From the NCBI GenBank assembly GCA_002773695.1, contig PFAJ01000017.1, positions 1 through 35,700 on the forward strand: a DNA stretch of 35,700 bases, written 5' to 3'. A model generated the notes under the pieces. It saw only the letters and a program-made list of their open reading frames with translations. It ran no database searches and was not told the DNA's origin. Source of the stretch: Candidatus Doudnabacteria bacterium CG10_big_fil_rev_8_21_14_0_10_41_10 (GTDB taxonomy: Bacteria > Patescibacteriota > Doudnabacteria > UBA920 > 2-01-FULL-50-11). How positions within the stretch are numbered: position 1 is the first letter of the stretch; each line of letters starts with the position of its first letter. Shown in pieces: positions 9,862 to 17,325 of the stretch. A program made the position numbers and the translations under genes.

Positions 9862-10650
9862 TTAATCTGTAAAATACCTCACCGCGTTTTGGAAAATCGG
9901 GAGGCCTTGAGGGGAATTAAATCCCTTTCGGCTTTCAGCCTCCCTCCCCTCGTCAGCAGGAGGTATACTAATCCGGCGCCAGTTGTAATATTGAGTCTTG
10001 AGAATATATCGTTCGGGATGAGGCATCAGTCCCAAAATTTTTCCTGACTCATTGCAAATTCCCGCAATATCGGCAACCGATCCGTTTGGATTGTTAGTAT
10101 ATGTAAAAACTATTTGATTATTCTGTTTTAGACTATCAAACACAGAATCATTTTTAACGATGAATTTTCCTTCGCCATGAGCGATTGGATATTCGACAGT
10201 TTTCCCAGACAGACCTTTCGTAAACACACACTTACTTTCCTGAACTTTTAAACCCTCCCACTGCGACATAAACTTAGCGTTGGAATTCACAATCAGACTA
10301 GCTTCTTCAGCTGGTTTTCCTCCAAAGGGCAGCAATCCGGTACGAACCAAAACCTGAAACCCGTTGCAAATTCCTATAACCAATTTATCTGAATTAACGA
10401 AAGACTGTAGTTCGTCGCCAATTCGATACAAAAGCTGGTTGGCAAGTATTTTTCCAGACATCACGTCATCGCCATAAGAAAACCCGCCGGGAATCCCCAG
10501 AATTTGATAATCGGATAACTTTTTTTCACTCGAAAAAATTTGATTGACGTGCACTATTTCGGACAATCCCTCAGCCAATTCGAAAGCAAACTGCATCTCT
10601 TCGTCGCAGTTAATACCGTCTGTTTTTAAAATAATCGCTTTAGGTTTCAT
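9862..10650 (-). CDS. purQ: phosphoribosylformylglycinamidine synthase, glutaminase subunit
   Basis: GIPGGFSYGDD, GICNGFQVLVRTGLLP, GLMPHPER motifs. Confidence 0.95.
   Translation of the reverse strand: MKPKAIILKTDGINCDEEMQFAFELAEGLSEIVHVNQIFSSEKKLSDYQILGIPGGFSYGDDVMSGKILANQLLYRIGDELQSFVNSDKLVIGICNGFQVLVRTGLLPFGGKPAEEASLIVNSNAKFMSQWEGLKVQESKCVFTKGLSGKTVEYPIAHGEGKFIVKNDSVFDSLKQNNQIVFTYTNNPNGSVADIAGICNESGKILGLMPHPERYILKTQYYNWRRISIPPADEGREAESRKGFNSPQGLPIFQNAVRYFTD
9903..9968. repeat. palindromic repeat-like insertion in frame within purQ
   Basis: GGGAGGCCTTGAGGGG...CCCTTTCGGCTTTCAGCCTCCCTCCCCTCGTCAGCAGGAGG interrupts the C-terminus (IPPADEGREAESRKGFNSPQ). Confidence 0.6.
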
Positions 10651-10663
10651 GGATTTACATTAT

Positions 10664-10775
10664 CACCCTCCCCAGCTTCGGGGAGGGTGTCCAGCCCTTT
10701 CTACGAAAGGGCTGGACGAGAAGGGATTGGAGCAAGTCCGATGCCTCTCCCCAACCCTCTCCCAAATGGGAGAGG
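10664..10775. repeat. cluster of three short hairpins between purL and purQ
   Basis: CACCCTCCCC-AGCTTC-GGGGAGGGTG (10 bp), TCCAGCCCTTTC-TAC-GAAAGGGCTGGA (12 bp), CCTCTCCC-AAAT-GGGAGAGG (8 bp), all perfect stems. Confidence 0.9.
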
Positions 10776-10783
10776 TTGAAATT

Positions 10784-13720
10784 CTAAAAATATTTACTCA
10801 TCGTCGACTTATAAACTTTTTTTAGCTCGTTGAGTTCCCCGAAGATCAATTCTTTTCCTTTAAATAAAAACTTCAAATTTTTGTCATCAGAGACTTCTCC
10901 AATTTTTGAAATCGGCAGACCGTTAAACAATTCTAAAATCTTACCCTCATCTTCCGGCGCTACTTCCACAACGAATCTCGTGTTAGATTCGGAAAACAAT
11001 ATATGATCAGCGCGGTCCAGATCCGATACTTTTTCCAGCTCAATTTTAGCGCCCATATCTCCACCAAAGCACATCTCCGCAATTGTTACTCCAATCCCAC
11101 CTTCGGAAATATCATGACTCGAACGTAACAACCCGTTTTGGATAGTCTTGTGCATCGTTTTAAAAATTTTTCGGGCGCGGATTATATCTACTTTCGGAAC
11201 CGAAGCTCCCAATTGGCCCTGCAGATCATAATAAACCGAACCTCCCAACTCGGCTTTGGTTTCGCCGATGATAAAAATGGAACTGCCCGCTTGTTTAAAA
11301 TCCGAGGAAACTGTTTTTTCTATTTCCTTAACCGGCGCAAACCCGGAAATACATAACACCGGGGGGATTTTTATTACTTTCCCGTTCGGCCCGCGATATG
11401 TACTGGACAAAGAATCTTTTCCGGACACAAGAGGCATCTTCCAAGCGGTTGTTATATCGTAACATGCATCAACCGCCTGATCGAGTTGTCCCAATTCTTC
11501 TTTTTCCGGAAACGGCCAGATAAAATTATCAAGCAATGCAATATTTTCAGGATCAACACCTGTCGCCACCATATTCCTCACGCACTCGTCAAAAGCTGAC
11601 GCTGCTCCCCAATAAGGATGGATTTTGTTATATGTTGGATTTAACCCGTGAGCCACGGCTAGACCCTTCCCCGAGCCCAACACCGGCTCAACAATCACCG
11701 CGTCGTTTGGCGCGTCCTTTTTTACCCCCGAATAAGGCTTCAACGCGGACGTTCCCATGACTTCATGGTCATAGCGTCTGACAATCGGCTCTTTGGAACA
11801 GACATTCCAATGAGCTAAGACTTTCTTAAAAATTTCATTATACGATTTAGCCCGGTCCCTCGCCTCTCCCGCCCTTCGAGCACCCTCTCCCATCCGGGAA
11901 AGCGGCGGGGTGAGACTAGAAACTTCTTGCTCCGCGAAGATAATCGGCTCACCAATATCTGGCTCTGATAATTTCGGCTCCCGCCATGCTCCCTCCATGG
12001 TTCTTTGTGGTAACCCATTGTGAATAAATTCCATCTCCAAATCGCAAACAATTTGCCCTTCCCAAGTAATTTTTAATTTCCGATCTCCCGTAAACTCTCC
12101 GATTACAACAATATCGACGTTATAGCCGCTAAATATCTTTTCAAGTTCTTTTATATCTTTAGGATCAACCGCCATAACCATACGCTCTTGCGATTCCGAA
12201 ATCCATATCTCCCATGGGGCAAGCCCTTGATATTTCAGATCAATACTTTCTAACTTTACTACAGCACCAAGTTCTTCTCCCATTTCGCCAACCGCTGAAG
12301 AATACCCCCCGGCGCCACAGTCGGTAATCGCTCGAATCAAACCTCGGTCACGCGCGATCATTATCGCGTCAAAAGTTCTTTTTTCTTCTATTGCATTTCC
12401 TATCTGCACCGCGCTTCCAGAAACCTTTTTGGTATCGGCGGTCATTTCACCTGATGAAAAAGTCGCGCCATGAATTCCATCCCGTCCGGTTTTCCCTCCC
12501 GCTGTCAAAATCAAATCTCCTTTTTTCGGTTTCGATTTTTTCGCGAATTTTTTCGGCATAATCCCGTAAGCCCCGACCAAAATAGTCGGCTTAGCCACAA
12601 AATCCGGATGGAAATGAAATGAGCCGTTATTGGTTGGGATACCCATGCGATTTCCGTAATCTTTCACCCCACGAACAATTTCTTGCGACAGTCTTCTGGG
12701 GTGGATCGAACCAAGTGGAACTTTCTCCCGTGGTAGATCCAGTGGCGCGAAACAGAAAACATCCGTGCTGATTATCGTCTTTGCCCCCTGACCAGTTCCG
12801 ACAATATCTCGAAAAACCCCTCCACTGCCGGTCATAGCCCCACCATAAGGCTCAATCGCCGAAGGAGAATTATGAGTTTCCCCTTTACCACTCACCGCCA
12901 AATCATCAAAAAATTCAATCACTCCGGAATTGTCTTCAAAAACTGAAATAACCTTACTGGAATTAATTTCCTTAGTCGCATTTTTAATTCGACTCATTAA
13001 CGATGGTTTTTCTTTACCATCGATTATAAGTTTGGCTTTAAAAGTTTTATGGACACAGTGTTCTGACCATGTTTGTGCCAACATTTCCACTTCCAAATCA
13101 GTTGGGTCTCGGTCAAGTTTTTTGAAATGATTTTGAATAATTTTCATTTCCTCTAAATTCAACCACAACCGATTATTACTCAGCTCTATTAGTTGCTCAT
13201 CAGACATTTCTCTCATAGAAACCGTTTGGGTTTGCGCGGGAGAACTGCCAATAATTAAAGTCTCCTCCGGTTTTTGTAATATATATTGAACGGTTTTATT
13301 CATCAATAATTGTTCGGCAATTTTTTGTACTTCATTCGTGCTAACATTTCCTTTAAATATATATCGCTTCCCGGTCCCTGCCGCGATTAAACCGTCAATT
13401 CCCAAATCAGAAACGGCTTTCGTAACAGAATCAATTTCCGTATCCATAACTCCGGGCTTTAGCGCAACCTCGATCGCTTTATCGGTTTCTCTTATTACTT
13501 GTTCGTCGAGCGCATAATCTTGCCATAGTTTTTCTACTAAAAGTTTTTCAACAATACTATGCAGCAATTGTTTATCGTCAATGCCTTCTAGTTTGTAAAC
13601 TTTAATAACTCGGATATCGTCGACTTTTCCCAAATTTAAATGGGCGATACTTTTTTTCAAAGCGTCGCCCTCTGCGTCCAAAAACTCTTTTTTTGTTACC
13701 ACTTCGATTCGATGAAGCAT
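10784..13720 (-). CDS. purL: phosphoribosylformylglycinamidine synthase with N-terminal PurS-like region(s) fused to PurL
   Basis: N-terminus MLHRIEVVTKKEFLDAEGDAL... is PurS-like; PurL motifs EHCVHKTF, GETHNSPSAIEPYGGA, GKDSLSSTY. The track ORF extends to 13783, but residues 1-21 lie in repeat-like DNA; MLHRIEV at 13720 is preferred. Confidence 0.92.
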   Translation of the reverse strand: MLHRIEVVTKKEFLDAEGDALKKSIAHLNLGKVDDIRVIKVYKLEGIDDKQLLHSIVEKLLVEKLWQDYALDEQVIRETDKAIEVALKPGVMDTEIDSVTKAVSDLGIDGLIAAGTGKRYIFKGNVSTNEVQKIAEQLLMNKTVQYILQKPEETLIIGSSPAQTQTVSMREMSDEQLIELSNNRLWLNLEEMKIIQNHFKKLDRDPTDLEVEMLAQTWSEHCVHKTFKAKLIIDGKEKPSLMSRIKNATKEINSSKVISVFEDNSGVIEFFDDLAVSGKGETHNSPSAIEPYGGAMTGSGGVFRDIVGTGQGAKTIISTDVFCFAPLDLPREKVPLGSIHPRRLSQEIVRGVKDYGNRMGIPTNNGSFHFHPDFVAKPTILVGAYGIMPKKFAKKSKPKKGDLILTAGGKTGRDGIHGATFSSGEMTADTKKVSGSAVQIGNAIEEKRTFDAIMIARDRGLIRAITDCGAGGYSSAVGEMGEELGAVVKLESIDLKYQGLAPWEIWISESQERMVMAVDPKDIKELEKIFSGYNVDIVVIGEFTGDRKLKITWEGQIVCDLEMEFIHNGLPQRTMEGAWREPKLSEPDIGEPIIFAEQEVSSLTPPLSRMGEGARRAGEARDRAKSYNEIFKKVLAHWNVCSKEPIVRRYDHEVMGTSALKPYSGVKKDAPNDAVIVEPVLGSGKGLAVAHGLNPTYNKIHPYWGAASAFDECVRNMVATGVDPENIALLDNFIWPFPEKEELGQLDQAVDACYDITTAWKMPLVSGKDSLSSTYRGPNGKVIKIPPVLCISGFAPVKEIEKTVSSDFKQAGSSIFIIGETKAELGGSVYYDLQGQLGASVPKVDIIRARKIFKTMHKTIQNGLLRSSHDISEGGIGVTIAEMCFGGDMGAKIELEKVSDLDRADHILFSESNTRFVVEVAPEDEGKILELFNGLPISKIGEVSDDKNLKFLFKGKELIFGELNELKKVYKSTMSKYF
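11850..11925. repeat. palindromic repeat-like insertion in frame within purL
   Basis: CGCCTCTCCCGCCCTTCGAGCACCCTCTCCCATCCGGGAAAGCGGCGGGGTGAG encodes LTPPLSRMGEGARRAGEARDRA; resembles the purL-purQ intergenic repeat (GCCTCTCCCCAACCCTCTCCCAAATGGGAGAGG). Confidence 0.65.
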
Positions 13721-13728
13721 GTTTTTCG

Positions 13729-13828
13729 TCATTTCGGATGCCACGGAGAGCAATCCGGAACCTATAATTCCCCGATCCCTCACCTCGCTTTGCGAGCGAA
13801 GCGAGCGGATAAAACCCTGGATGACACC
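13729..13828. repeat. palindromic repeat element at the purM-purL junction
   Basis: GTCATTTCGGATGCC...CTCGCTTTGCGAGCGAAGCGAG...CCCTGGATGAC; imperfect terminal inverted repeats, same style as the 30343-30434 element. Confidence 0.65.
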
Positions 13829-13834
13829 CGAGGT

Positions 13835-14893
13835 TTACTCAAATATAACTCCTCTTTCTCCTTCCTCAACACTACCAATTTCAAACGTCCTCATACCATA
13901 CTTTTCGAACACTTGTCGAATCTCTTTAGATTTTTCAAGCTCACAAACCAACACCAAACCGACACCCATATTAAAAGTTCTTCTCATTTCATTATCTTCA
14001 ATACCGCCCTCTTTTTGAATGTGTAAAAAAATCGGCAACGTTTCCCAGGATCCCAATTTTATCTTCGCTTGGACATGCTCTGGTAATATCCTCACAACAT
14101 TGCCCGGCAAACCCCCGCCGGTAATATGCGCGATCCCTTTAATGACTTTTTTTGAAAACAATTCGGTAAGAGGTTTTGTATAATTTCTGTGAGGTGTGAG
14201 CAATTCTTCCCCTAATGATTTTCCCGAAAATGGAACTTGACCAGTTAAACTATATTTTTTATCCCCAAAAAAAACTCTATTAACCATTGAAAACCCGTTT
14301 GTGTGAAGACCTGAAGAAGAAACTCCAACTAAAGTGTCTCCCGGTTTAATATTTACACCAGTGATAACATTATCCAAATCAACAACCCCTCTTATATTCC
14401 CTACCAAATCAAAGTGACCTTCTTGGTAAACTTTCGGCATCTCCGCAACCTCACCATAATGCAAAATCAACCCGGCGTTCTCACAAGCCCTCGCAACTCC
14501 TGAAATTATTTCTACCACGATTCTTGGTTCCAATTTCTCAACCGCGATATAGTCACCGAAAACCAGCGGGATGGCGCCTTGCGCCAAAATATCGCCACAA
14601 CTATGCCCGACCATATCATGCCCAACCGTATCATAGCGACCCATCATGTGCGCGATTTTCACTTTTGTTCCAACACTGTCAATACTTTCAACGTCGGCAA
14701 AATTTTCTATTCCTAATTTCTTAGCGGCTTTTGCGGTATGAAAAACCGCCCCAAAAGATCCCAAGCCCGCGACAACACAATCGGCAAACTGAGATTTTGC
14801 GTTAGTCTCTTTTATAATTTTGGCAAACTCATCCTTGGCACGTTCGTACGCATCTATATCTACCCCGGCTTGCGCGTAAGTTAACTTGCTCAT
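13835..14893 (-). CDS. purM: phosphoribosylformylglycinamidine cyclo-ligase
   Basis: TYAQAGVDIDAYERA, SIDSVGTKVKIA, HITGGGLPGNVVRILP. Confidence 0.96.
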   Translation of the reverse strand: MSKLTYAQAGVDIDAYERAKDEFAKIIKETNAKSQFADCVVAGLGSFGAVFHTAKAAKKLGIENFADVESIDSVGTKVKIAHMMGRYDTVGHDMVGHSCGDILAQGAIPLVFGDYIAVEKLEPRIVVEIISGVARACENAGLILHYGEVAEMPKVYQEGHFDLVGNIRGVVDLDNVITGVNIKPGDTLVGVSSSGLHTNGFSMVNRVFFGDKKYSLTGQVPFSGKSLGEELLTPHRNYTKPLTELFSKKVIKGIAHITGGGLPGNVVRILPEHVQAKIKLGSWETLPIFLHIQKEGGIEDNEMRRTFNMGVGLVLVCELEKSKEIRQVFEKYGMRTFEIGSVEEGERGVIFE

Positions 14894-14895
14894 AG

Positions 14896-14959
14896 ATTTA
14901 AGAATTAAGATTTATGATTTAAGAATCATTCTTAAATCTTACCTCATAAATCGTAAATC
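14896..14959. repeat. AT-rich palindromic element between purH and purM
   Basis: Core GATTTAAGAAT-C-ATTCTTAAATC (14916-14938), flanked by a further imperfect AGATTTA...TAAATCT inverted repeat. Confidence 0.7.
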
Positions 14960-14966
14960 TGAATTA

Positions 14967-16523
14967 TTAATGCCTAAATTCTCTTATTCCGGTAAATACC
15001 ATACTCAATCCTTTTTCATCCGCCGCGGCGATTACTTCTTCATCCTTAATTGATCCTCCTGGCTGGATTATCGCCTTTATTCCAGCGTCCGCGATCTGGT
15101 CTATACTGTCGCGGAATGGAAAAAACGCGTCTGACCCAAGCACTGCGCCAATTTCGCGGCCACCAGCTTTTTTTATAGCAATTTCTACGGAATCAACTCG
15201 CGACATCTGCCCCGCCCCCGCCCCCACTAACATTTTATCTTTAACCAAAACTATCGCGTTTGATTTCACGTGCCTGCATACCTTGAAGGCAAATAACATA
15301 TCATCGATCTGTGTTTGATCCGGTTTAAGTTTGGTTACAATTTTCAAATCATCCTTGGAGATATTTTTCCGATCAAAATCCTGTTCCAATATTCCCCCCA
15401 CAACTTTTCGATAATCCTTAAGTCCTGCTTGTTTTTTAAATTCGCCTAATTTTAATAAACGCAGATTTTTCTTCTGTTTTAAAACTGTCAAAGCTTTCGG
15501 ATCAAAATCCGGCGCCAGAACAATTTCCATAAATATCTTATTGACCTTTTCCGCAATACTTTTAGTACAATTCCGGTTCATTGCGATAATTCCACCAAAC
15601 GCTGACCTCGGGTCTCCTTGATATGCTTTTTCATACGCTTCGTCAATATCTTTTCCAACAGCGCAACCGGCCGGGTTTGTATGTTTGACAACAGATACTG
15701 TCGGCTCTTCGAACTCTTTTACCAAATTTAGCGCCGAATCCGCGTCCAAGATATTGTTATAAGAAAGTTTCTTTCCATGCAATATTTCTGCTTTTGCTAT
15801 AGAGGTTTCAAAAACACTGGTATCTTCGTAAAATGAAGCGGACTGATGCGGATTTTCTCCGTAACGCAAGTCGTAAAGCTTTTGAAATTGTATTGTGAGT
15901 CCCTCCTCCCATCTCTGAGGAGAGGATGCCTGAAAGGCAGGTGAGGAGTCTTTTGATTCAAAATATTCTGCAATTGCTTTGTCGTATTCGCTCGTCCTTT
16001 TAAAAACTTTCAAAGCAAGGAGCTTTTTCGTTTCCATCGAAACTTCCCCTTTTTTTAACTGATCGACAATTTTTTTGTAATCTTGAGGATCACAAACAAC
16101 TACTATATGTTTGTGATTTTTTGCGGCGGACCGAAGCATTGTCGGCCCCCCGATATCAATCATTTCAATTGCCTCACTCTCTTTCAAGTCTGGTTTTGCA
16201 ACCACCTGTTCAAACGGATAAAGGTTAATAACCACCATATCAATCATTGAAATATTATTATTCTTGGCATCCCGCATGTGCGAAATATCATCTCGATCGG
16301 CCAAAATTCCGCCGTGAATTTTTGGATGCAAAGTTTTTACTCGTCCGTGCATGATTTCAGGAAACCCGGTAACCGAGCTTGCGGTTTTAACCGCAATGCC
16401 CGCGTCTAAAATTTCCTTATAAGTCCCTCCGGTAGAAATAATCTCCCAACCAAAATCGGCCAGCTGCCTGGCAAATTCCACAATCCCGGTTTTGTCGTAT
16501 ACGCTTATTAGAGCTCGTGGCAT
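14967..16523 (-). CDS. purH: bifunctional AICAR formyltransferase/IMP cyclohydrolase
   Basis: ALISVYDKTGIVEFARQL, GRVKTLHPKIHGGIL, DLRYGENPHQSASFY, IIQPGGSIKDEEVI. Confidence 0.97.
   Translation of the reverse strand: MPRALISVYDKTGIVEFARQLADFGWEIISTGGTYKEILDAGIAVKTASSVTGFPEIMHGRVKTLHPKIHGGILADRDDISHMRDAKNNNISMIDMVVINLYPFEQVVAKPDLKESEAIEMIDIGGPTMLRSAAKNHKHIVVVCDPQDYKKIVDQLKKGEVSMETKKLLALKVFKRTSEYDKAIAEYFESKDSSPAFQASSPQRWEEGLTIQFQKLYDLRYGENPHQSASFYEDTSVFETSIAKAEILHGKKLSYNNILDADSALNLVKEFEEPTVSVVKHTNPAGCAVGKDIDEAYEKAYQGDPRSAFGGIIAMNRNCTKSIAEKVNKIFMEIVLAPDFDPKALTVLKQKKNLRLLKLGEFKKQAGLKDYRKVVGGILEQDFDRKNISKDDLKIVTKLKPDQTQIDDMLFAFKVCRHVKSNAIVLVKDKMLVGAGAGQMSRVDSVEIAIKKAGGREIGAVLGSDAFFPFRDSIDQIADAGIKAIIQPGGSIKDEEVIAAADEKGLSMVFTGIREFRH
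15897..15952. repeat. palindromic repeat-like insertion in frame within purH
   Basis: GTCCCTCCTCCCATCTCTGAGGAGAGGATGCCTGAAAGGCAGGTGAGGAGTC encodes KDSSPAFQASSPQRWEEGL at the interdomain region. Confidence 0.65.
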
Positions 16524-16546
16524 TTTTTTTCTTCTTTTTTTAAAAT

Positions 16547-16605
16547 AAAGGGGTGAGAAGGGTTATGAGGAAATTTCGAATCATAACTCCCTGTGATCAC
16601 CTTTT
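16547..16605. repeat. long imperfect hairpin between purN and purH
   Basis: AAAGGGGTGAGAAGGGTTATGA ... TCATAACTCCCTGTGATCACCTTTT inverted repeat. Confidence 0.65.
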
Positions 16606-16625
16606 ATCTTAAGAGAGAAATTAAT

Positions 16626-17234
16626 TTACTTTTTACTATAAACCAAATCCGATATATCCCCTCCGGCAAAACGAATAAGTCCTTCAATTATTATCTCCTG
16701 CTCCTTGGCCTGGACTTTCGGCTTCAAGGTTTCCGGTGTTTCCCCCGGTTCAATCGGCACTTTCGCCTGCAAAATTATCGGCCCGGTATCCACACCCTCG
16801 TCAATAAAATGTAAGGTAGCGCCAGTTTGTTTTTCATGAGCATCTAGCACTGCTTTATGTACATCCAAATCCATCCCAGGATATTTAGGCAACAGCGACG
16901 GGTGAATATTTATTATCCGATTTTTATAAGGAGTAATAAGCGCTTGTGTAATAATCCGCATATAACCAATCAATAAAATCAAACCAATTTTGTGCTCCTG
17001 ACAAAGCCTTAAACACTCTTCGTCAAATTCTTTTTTCTTTTTACCTTTCGGATTAAGAAAAATCGTTTTGTAATCGGCATCACGCGCACGTTTCAAAATC
17101 CCCGAGTCTTTTTTGTCAGACATTACAAACTTCAAATCAATATACGCAAGACGACCTGCCTTTTTTTCATCGATTATCGCCTGCAAATCGGTGCCGTTGG
17201 TCGATCCAAAAACGGCGAGGTTTACTTTATTCAT
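16626..17234 (-). CDS. purN: phosphoribosylglycinamide formyltransferase
   Basis: NIHPSLLPKYPG, GATLHFIDEGVDTGPII. Confidence 0.96.
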   Translation of the reverse strand: MNKVNLAVFGSTNGTDLQAIIDEKKAGRLAYIDLKFVMSDKKDSGILKRARDADYKTIFLNPKGKKKKEFDEECLRLCQEHKIGLILLIGYMRIITQALITPYKNRIINIHPSLLPKYPGMDLDVHKAVLDAHEKQTGATLHFIDEGVDTGPIILQAKVPIEPGETPETLKPKVQAKEQEIIIEGLIRFAGGDISDLVYSKK

Positions 17235-17239
17235 ATTTC

Positions 17240-17325
17240 TTACACTCCCCTTCTTTACAAGGAGGAGTTGAGGGAGATTCTTTTTATTTTACTTAATGCA
17301 CCCTCCTAACCCCTAATCCCTCTTA
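17240..17325. repeat. GC-rich palindromic repeat remnants at the purN-purD junction
   Basis: ACTCCCCTTCTTTACAAGGAGGAGTTGAGGGAG and CACCCTCCTAACCCCTAATCCCTCTTA; the latter contains the purD stop. Confidence 0.45.

Follow-up and report, generated by a model that had tools for sequence, protein, structure and literature searches.

A dispersed palindromic repeat lies in frame within purL, purH, and other genes of a 1.08-Mb bacterial genome

Most of what is known about protein-coding palindromic elements comes from Rickettsia; elsewhere, intragenic REPs are scattered. The Rickettsia elements (RPEs), of approximately 150 bp, are the classic case of palindromes that code in frame (PMC10969869). They are also mentioned by Di Nocera et al. 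(2013; PMC3733652), who described intragenic GTAG/CGTC REPs in several bacteria. Those REPs encode 20–30 residues within ORFs for known proteins, and their hosts include uvr, tRNA synthetase, and pseudouridine synthase genes. In that text, in which Patescibacteria are unmentioned, REPs are mostly intergenic, the tolerance of intragenic copies in linkers or loops is suggested, and untagged REP-like families are said to remain to be explored. A literature search of incomplete coverage found no account of coding palindromes in the Candidate Phyla Radiation. In-frame coding palindromes as such (RPEs, intragenic REPs) are known; what appears new in the present case is the sequence family and its lineage, and that it is unusually gene-dwelling.

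The window, i.e., the whole stretch of 35,700 nucleotides that was analyzed, is one contig (C62) of a genome of 1.08 Mb in 70 contigs. The genome probably belongs to the Patescibacteria, judging from its size, its small-genome relatives, and the closest named relatives of its PurL, which include Patescibacteria and no Rickettsiales. The minus strand of the region carries purQ, purL, purM-like, purH, and purN/purD-like genes, and the peptides that the initial annotation had named for PurQ, PurL, and PurH are encoded where it placed them, according to the ORF coordinates and translations. Residues 25–93 at the N-terminus of PurL gave a weak PurS-like match (model NF004630, below the cut-off), and purL at 10784–13783 is possibly a PurS–PurL fusion.

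Aligned copies of the repeat are approximately 44–64 nt long and contain two hairpins. Hairpin 1 (CCTCTCCC..GGGAGAGG) is followed by RTG, by hairpin 2 in either a short form (GCCCGAAGGGC) or a long form (CCAGCCCTTTC..GAAAGGGCTGG), and by a closing GGTGAGG-like arm. An outer stem (CCCTCACC..GGTGAGGG) is clearest in a genome from another family, G218, and weaker in the window's copies. The copies in PurL, PurH, Fpg, and an RluD-like protein were among those used to train our covariance model R1; to avoid this circularity, a second model, R2, was built from 15 copies in the same genome, all outside genes. Four copies lie in the window, which is no more than a slight enrichment, and the genes and segments concerned are as follows.

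9862..10650, minus strand: purQ (NCBIfam TIGR01737, above cut-off)
9907..9966, minus strand: C-terminal segment of PurQ, IPPADEGREAESRKGFNSPQ (R1 12 bits, E 0.042 in 8.5 kb)
10661..10724, plus strand: intergenic copy in the long-second-hairpin form, TCCAGCCCTTTC..GAAAGGGCTGGA (R1 40.4 bits; used in training both R1 and R2)
10740..10780, minus strand: further intergenic copy, which lacks hairpin 2, CCTCTCCCATTTGGGAGAGG (R1 20.2 bits; R2 E 2.2e-4)
10784..13783, minus strand: purL (NCBIfam TIGR01736, above cut-off)
11859..11915, minus strand: in-frame palindromic element inside purL (R1 49.9 bits; R2 E 4.2e-9)
14967..16523, minus strand: purH (NCBIfam TIGR00355, above cut-off)
15899..15950, plus strand: in-frame palindromic element inside purH (R1 48.4 bits; R2 E 4.2e-8)

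R2 recovered the PurL and PurH elements and six further coding copies, none of which was in its training set. Single-sequence nhmmer searches with the PurL and PurH DNA elements likewise matched other copies in 272 kb of sequence from the same genome, with zero matches for the elements in a reversed-DNA control. The coding and noncoding copies are homologous. Across the 1.08 Mb, R1 returned 28 matches at E<0.01, and approximately 26 distinct loci were distinguished, of which at least seven were intragenic and the majority lay outside genes; these counts rest on genome-wide profile searches and on sampled stretches of ~272 kb. The family is accordingly repeated elsewhere in the genome, in degenerate copies of which none is exact. 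Because it occurs genome-wide, including in the genes for Fpg, the RluD-like protein, AsnB, MurD, and DnaE, the phenomenon is not a feature of the purine pathway, and the earlier suggestion that it is concentrated there was abandoned. Two other markers of copies were also set aside: the copies have diverged too far for exact 10-mer repetition to be informative, and single-strand folding singled out none of the coding elements (z −1.0 for PurL, −1.7 for PurH, and +0.6 for PurQ). The intergenic region at 10655–10785, between purL and purQ, folded far better than shuffled sequences (z −8.3). A scan of the site for tRNAs was negative.

The PurL insert encodes the peptide LTPPLSRMGEGARRAGEARDRA (approximately 11848–11914) and lies in the linker that joins the two halves of the enzyme, at a gap between the aligned halves of a solved PurL. 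Four PurL homologs with 51–54% identity are approximately 30 residues shorter at the insert, and 13 of 14 homologs from relatives lack these residues; the element explains approximately 22 of them, and the remainder is DIGEPIIFAEQEVSS. An AlphaFold2 model of PurL (pLDDT 48.7, pTM 0.43), in which the insert region (586–646) was low-confidence coil like other parts, was too poor to serve as structural evidence. In a relative, G044, the same PurL linker holds a different repeat-like insert, NASEGEGSHQKLRDSSSAALLGMTSRGE (L019). In purH, which is on the minus strand, the element is oppositely oriented and encodes DSSPAFQASSPQRWEEG between the two catalytic domains. The closest PurH homolog (61% identical) lacks approximately 20 residues at this point, and a solved PurH of lower similarity, 3zzm, shows unrelated residues within this linker, which, from the sequences compared, is naturally variable. 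The PurH of G031 carries a different repeat-like insert at another site (NPSLALPSGGEGTGQ, L064). None of the aligned homologs shares the PurL or PurH peptide as conserved sequence, and the identification of both inserts as copies of the repeat was upheld by R2, the nhmmer matches, and the absence of the inserts from homologs.

The six further coding copies are all in frame and open. Their R2 E-values were 2e-12 (RluD-like), 5e-11 (Fpg), 4e-10 (DnaE), 9e-10 (AsnB), 7e-5 (MurD), and 4e-4 (glycosyltransferase); NCBIfam supports the gene identities, that of the glycosyltransferase only below curated cut-offs. Genes for cell-wall, repair, replication, and RNA-modification functions are among them. 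Relative to solved homologs, the MurD, Fpg, and RluD-like inserts fall in alignment gaps, and the AsnB insert fills the gap that separates two aligned domains. The reading frame stays open through the PurL, PurH, and all further coding inserts. AsnB also contains an in-frame stretch, FFEQREAESRKSFSTSSNDN (L116), resembling a second dispersed repeat, TTCGAGCGAAGTCGAGAA, which has 51 matches in the genome at ≤3 mismatches and none in a backwards control.

We consider it highly probable that the inserts in PurL and PurH derive from a non-autonomous dispersed palindrome, REP- or MITE-like, as coding copies that have survived in frame in loops or linkers and are translated. In this scheme, the short palindrome would spread across the genome, entering genes as well as the spaces between them, and the copies in genes would persist where they are in frame, free of stop codons, and situated in loops or inter-domain linkers. 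They would be translated as low-complexity spacers rich in Pro, Gly, Arg, and Glu, adding approximately 17–20 amino acids per protein. The GC-rich element has more open frames (4.3–4.9 of six) than random genome segments (3.0). From sequence, we infer that the element is mobile, translated, and nearly neutral, and the insertion events are likewise deduced from comparison with diverged homologs. The proposal that these are protein-coding palindromes akin to those of Rickettsia, in a different-looking sequence family, was supported for PurL and PurH by R2 and is extended by the copies found across the genome and the phylum. As in the RPEs, dispersed palindromes occupy housekeeping genes of many unrelated kinds without breaking the frame, with a large intragenic share. 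The present family differs from them in its lineage, which, judging from the PurL relatives, is not Rickettsiales, in its unit of ~44–64 nt rather than ~150 bp, a separation drawn from published descriptions, and in G218, where >90% of the examined copies are intragenic. By analogy, it appears to work like an RPE, and we do not claim that it is one. It would thus offer a second system, beside Rickettsia, for how selfish DNA makes new protein segments, and it cautions that odd protein inserts in this group can be repeat-derived and not functional.

R1 matches were found in 30 of the 60 genomes of a set of relatives, the window's own genome included, and, under stricter filters, in 31 of 287 genomes of a wider sample of the phylum; the distribution of the repeat across the phylum is patchy. 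Among 71 strong copies in the relatives, 28 were intragenic by a rule that requires the ORF to extend ≥45 residues to either side, compared with 52% of random positions judged likewise, so that genes are somewhat depleted of copies. The ORFs concerned were read as UvrC, ValRS, LeuRS, MiaA, AtpG, and SMC, among others, mostly by eye from the sequence, except those run through NCBIfam. The Fpg insert occupies the same site in the window's genome (G000) and in that of a second genus (G003), with common flanking sequence, and one insertion has therefore probably persisted through the divergence of the two genera. In ValRS, copies in two different families (G003, L168; G017, L179) share site, orientation, and frame, which may reflect either one old insertion that was kept or separate insertions at a site that tolerates them.

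G218 was the most extreme of the genomes, with 123 matches at E≤0.01 in ~1.0 Mb and at least 84 in-frame copies (loci L210–L224 and L225–L262), in which one frame, reading PSPGLRPPSPxGRGEGEG, dominates. Of 92 classified copies, 84 were in frame in ORFs, compared with 76% of random positions, indicating no depletion in genes; ten of these 84 ORFs were checked against protein families, and a few may be spurious long frames. The host genes confirmed with NCBIfam include RecG, UvrB, LepA, LeuRS, AlaRS, MetRS, GltX, TsaD, RsmA, and Tgt. Single genes hold up to three copies, and the two inserts in UvrB and the one in GltX each form a clean gap against solved structures. The G218 consensus (CCCTCACCCTCCCCTCTCCCTgAGGGAGAGGGTGGCCGnAGGCCgGGTGAGGG) has sharp ends, starting with CCCTCACCC and finishing with GGTGAGGG. 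No consistent target-site duplication was seen in 62 flank pairs, nor was there a clear target motif.

A more far-reaching reading, which we put forward only tentatively and think somewhat less probable than its opposite, is that members of this phylum carry a palindrome adapted to coding sequence, with fixed-length, frame-keeping units, an open and strongly preferred frame, a conserved and probably disordered peptide (PSPGLRPPSPxGRGEGEG), locations mostly in core genes, and a spread independent of RAYT. The family raises the questions of how palindromes this short are mobilized in the absence of a RAYT and of the reason for the preference for one frame. A related but unlikely explanation is that the inserts are functional, either as an mRNA hairpin (in attenuation, processing, or translational pausing) or as a selected linker peptide. 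It gains from the dominant frame of G218, which is used by 58 of the 84 coding copies while two other frames are open about as often, and from the persistence of copies across genera. Complete elements also tend toward one length class: among the 62 G218 copies in which the two outer arms were found, 55, every one of the six intergenic copies among them, have a length of 2 modulo 3 (mostly 53, also 44 and 62), an observation rather than a test, as the copies are related by descent. Conversely, five of the six frames are used by coding copies in the window's genome and order, roughly according to their availability, the host genes are unrelated, and nearly all homologs manage without the inserts.

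It is improbable that the elements are classical REPs moved by a resident RAYT (Y1_Tnp), with the gene insertions as by-products. In favor of this are the REP-like traits of the element, a short, dispersed palindrome, and the three Y1_Tnp matches in the window's genome (contigs C47, C59, and C61), but the hairpins and repeats beside those genes are other sequences. Near the three genes, of which one lies at a contig end, the repeats noted were AAAATAGCTCCTGACCCTATTTTCTCAC, GGGTCATGTCCCCATTTT, and GGAGGCCTTTAGGCCTCC. Nor does Y1_Tnp track the repeat: it was present in 15 of 30 repeat-positive and 13 of 30 repeat-negative genomes (p 0.80) and missing from seven of the nine genomes with at least nine copies. 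The G218 consensus carries neither a GTAG nor a CGTC tag, and no tag is conserved outside its ends. Mobilization by RAYT is therefore disfavored. Like the REPs of Di Nocera et al., the family has short palindromes in ORFs that include uvr, tRNA synthetase, and pseudouridine synthase genes, where linkers or loops are likewise proposed to tolerate them; it differs from the tagged REPs in lacking the tag and any link to RAYT, and from extragenic REPs in the intragenic location of most G218 copies, the majority in the window's genome being outside genes. MITEs offer another likeness, as the element is small and non-autonomous and has terminal inverted repeats in G218 (outer arms CCCTCACC/GGTGAGGG); it is shorter than MITEs, and no parent transposon was found.

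Of the three purine genes that had been proposed to carry the repeat, PurL and PurH stand on the R2 and nhmmer matches, and PurQ does not. Its segment scored weakly with R1, was missed by R2, and had no second copy in the genome by BLAST; nhmmer, run on the 272 kb sampled, found nothing related to it. The two closest PurQ homologs lack approximately 15–17 residues there, but many others carry an unrelated segment of ~16 residues at this site, so that an insertion in PurQ is not established. The segment may be a strongly decayed copy, an unrelated palindrome, or simply a loop of the usual variable kind, and is not securely a member of the family. A likeness between REAESRKSF of AsnB and REAESRKGF of PurQ was dropped, as the underlying DNA is not the same and the stretch in AsnB looks more like a different repeat family. 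It is very improbable that PurQ, PurL, and PurH all just have ordinary variable linkers with a chance C/T-rich likeness to the intergenic palindrome; this would fit PurQ, with its one copy, weak score, and variable region, and is excluded for PurL and PurH by R2, as an independent model, and by the empty reversed-sequence controls. Least probable of all is removal of the inserts after transcription or translation, as mini-introns or intein-like segments that leave the proteins unlengthened: the host enzymes are essential and G218 genes hold up to three inserts each, as removal might explain, but splicing would not need the coding copies to keep frame and avoid stop codons, as they do, no Rfam family was found at the site, and the element is also common between genes. 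Elsewhere in the window, an ORF at 2183–2629 has a repeat-like N-terminus (MSKDPFSRGEGGPSEKDF) and may itself be repeat-derived.
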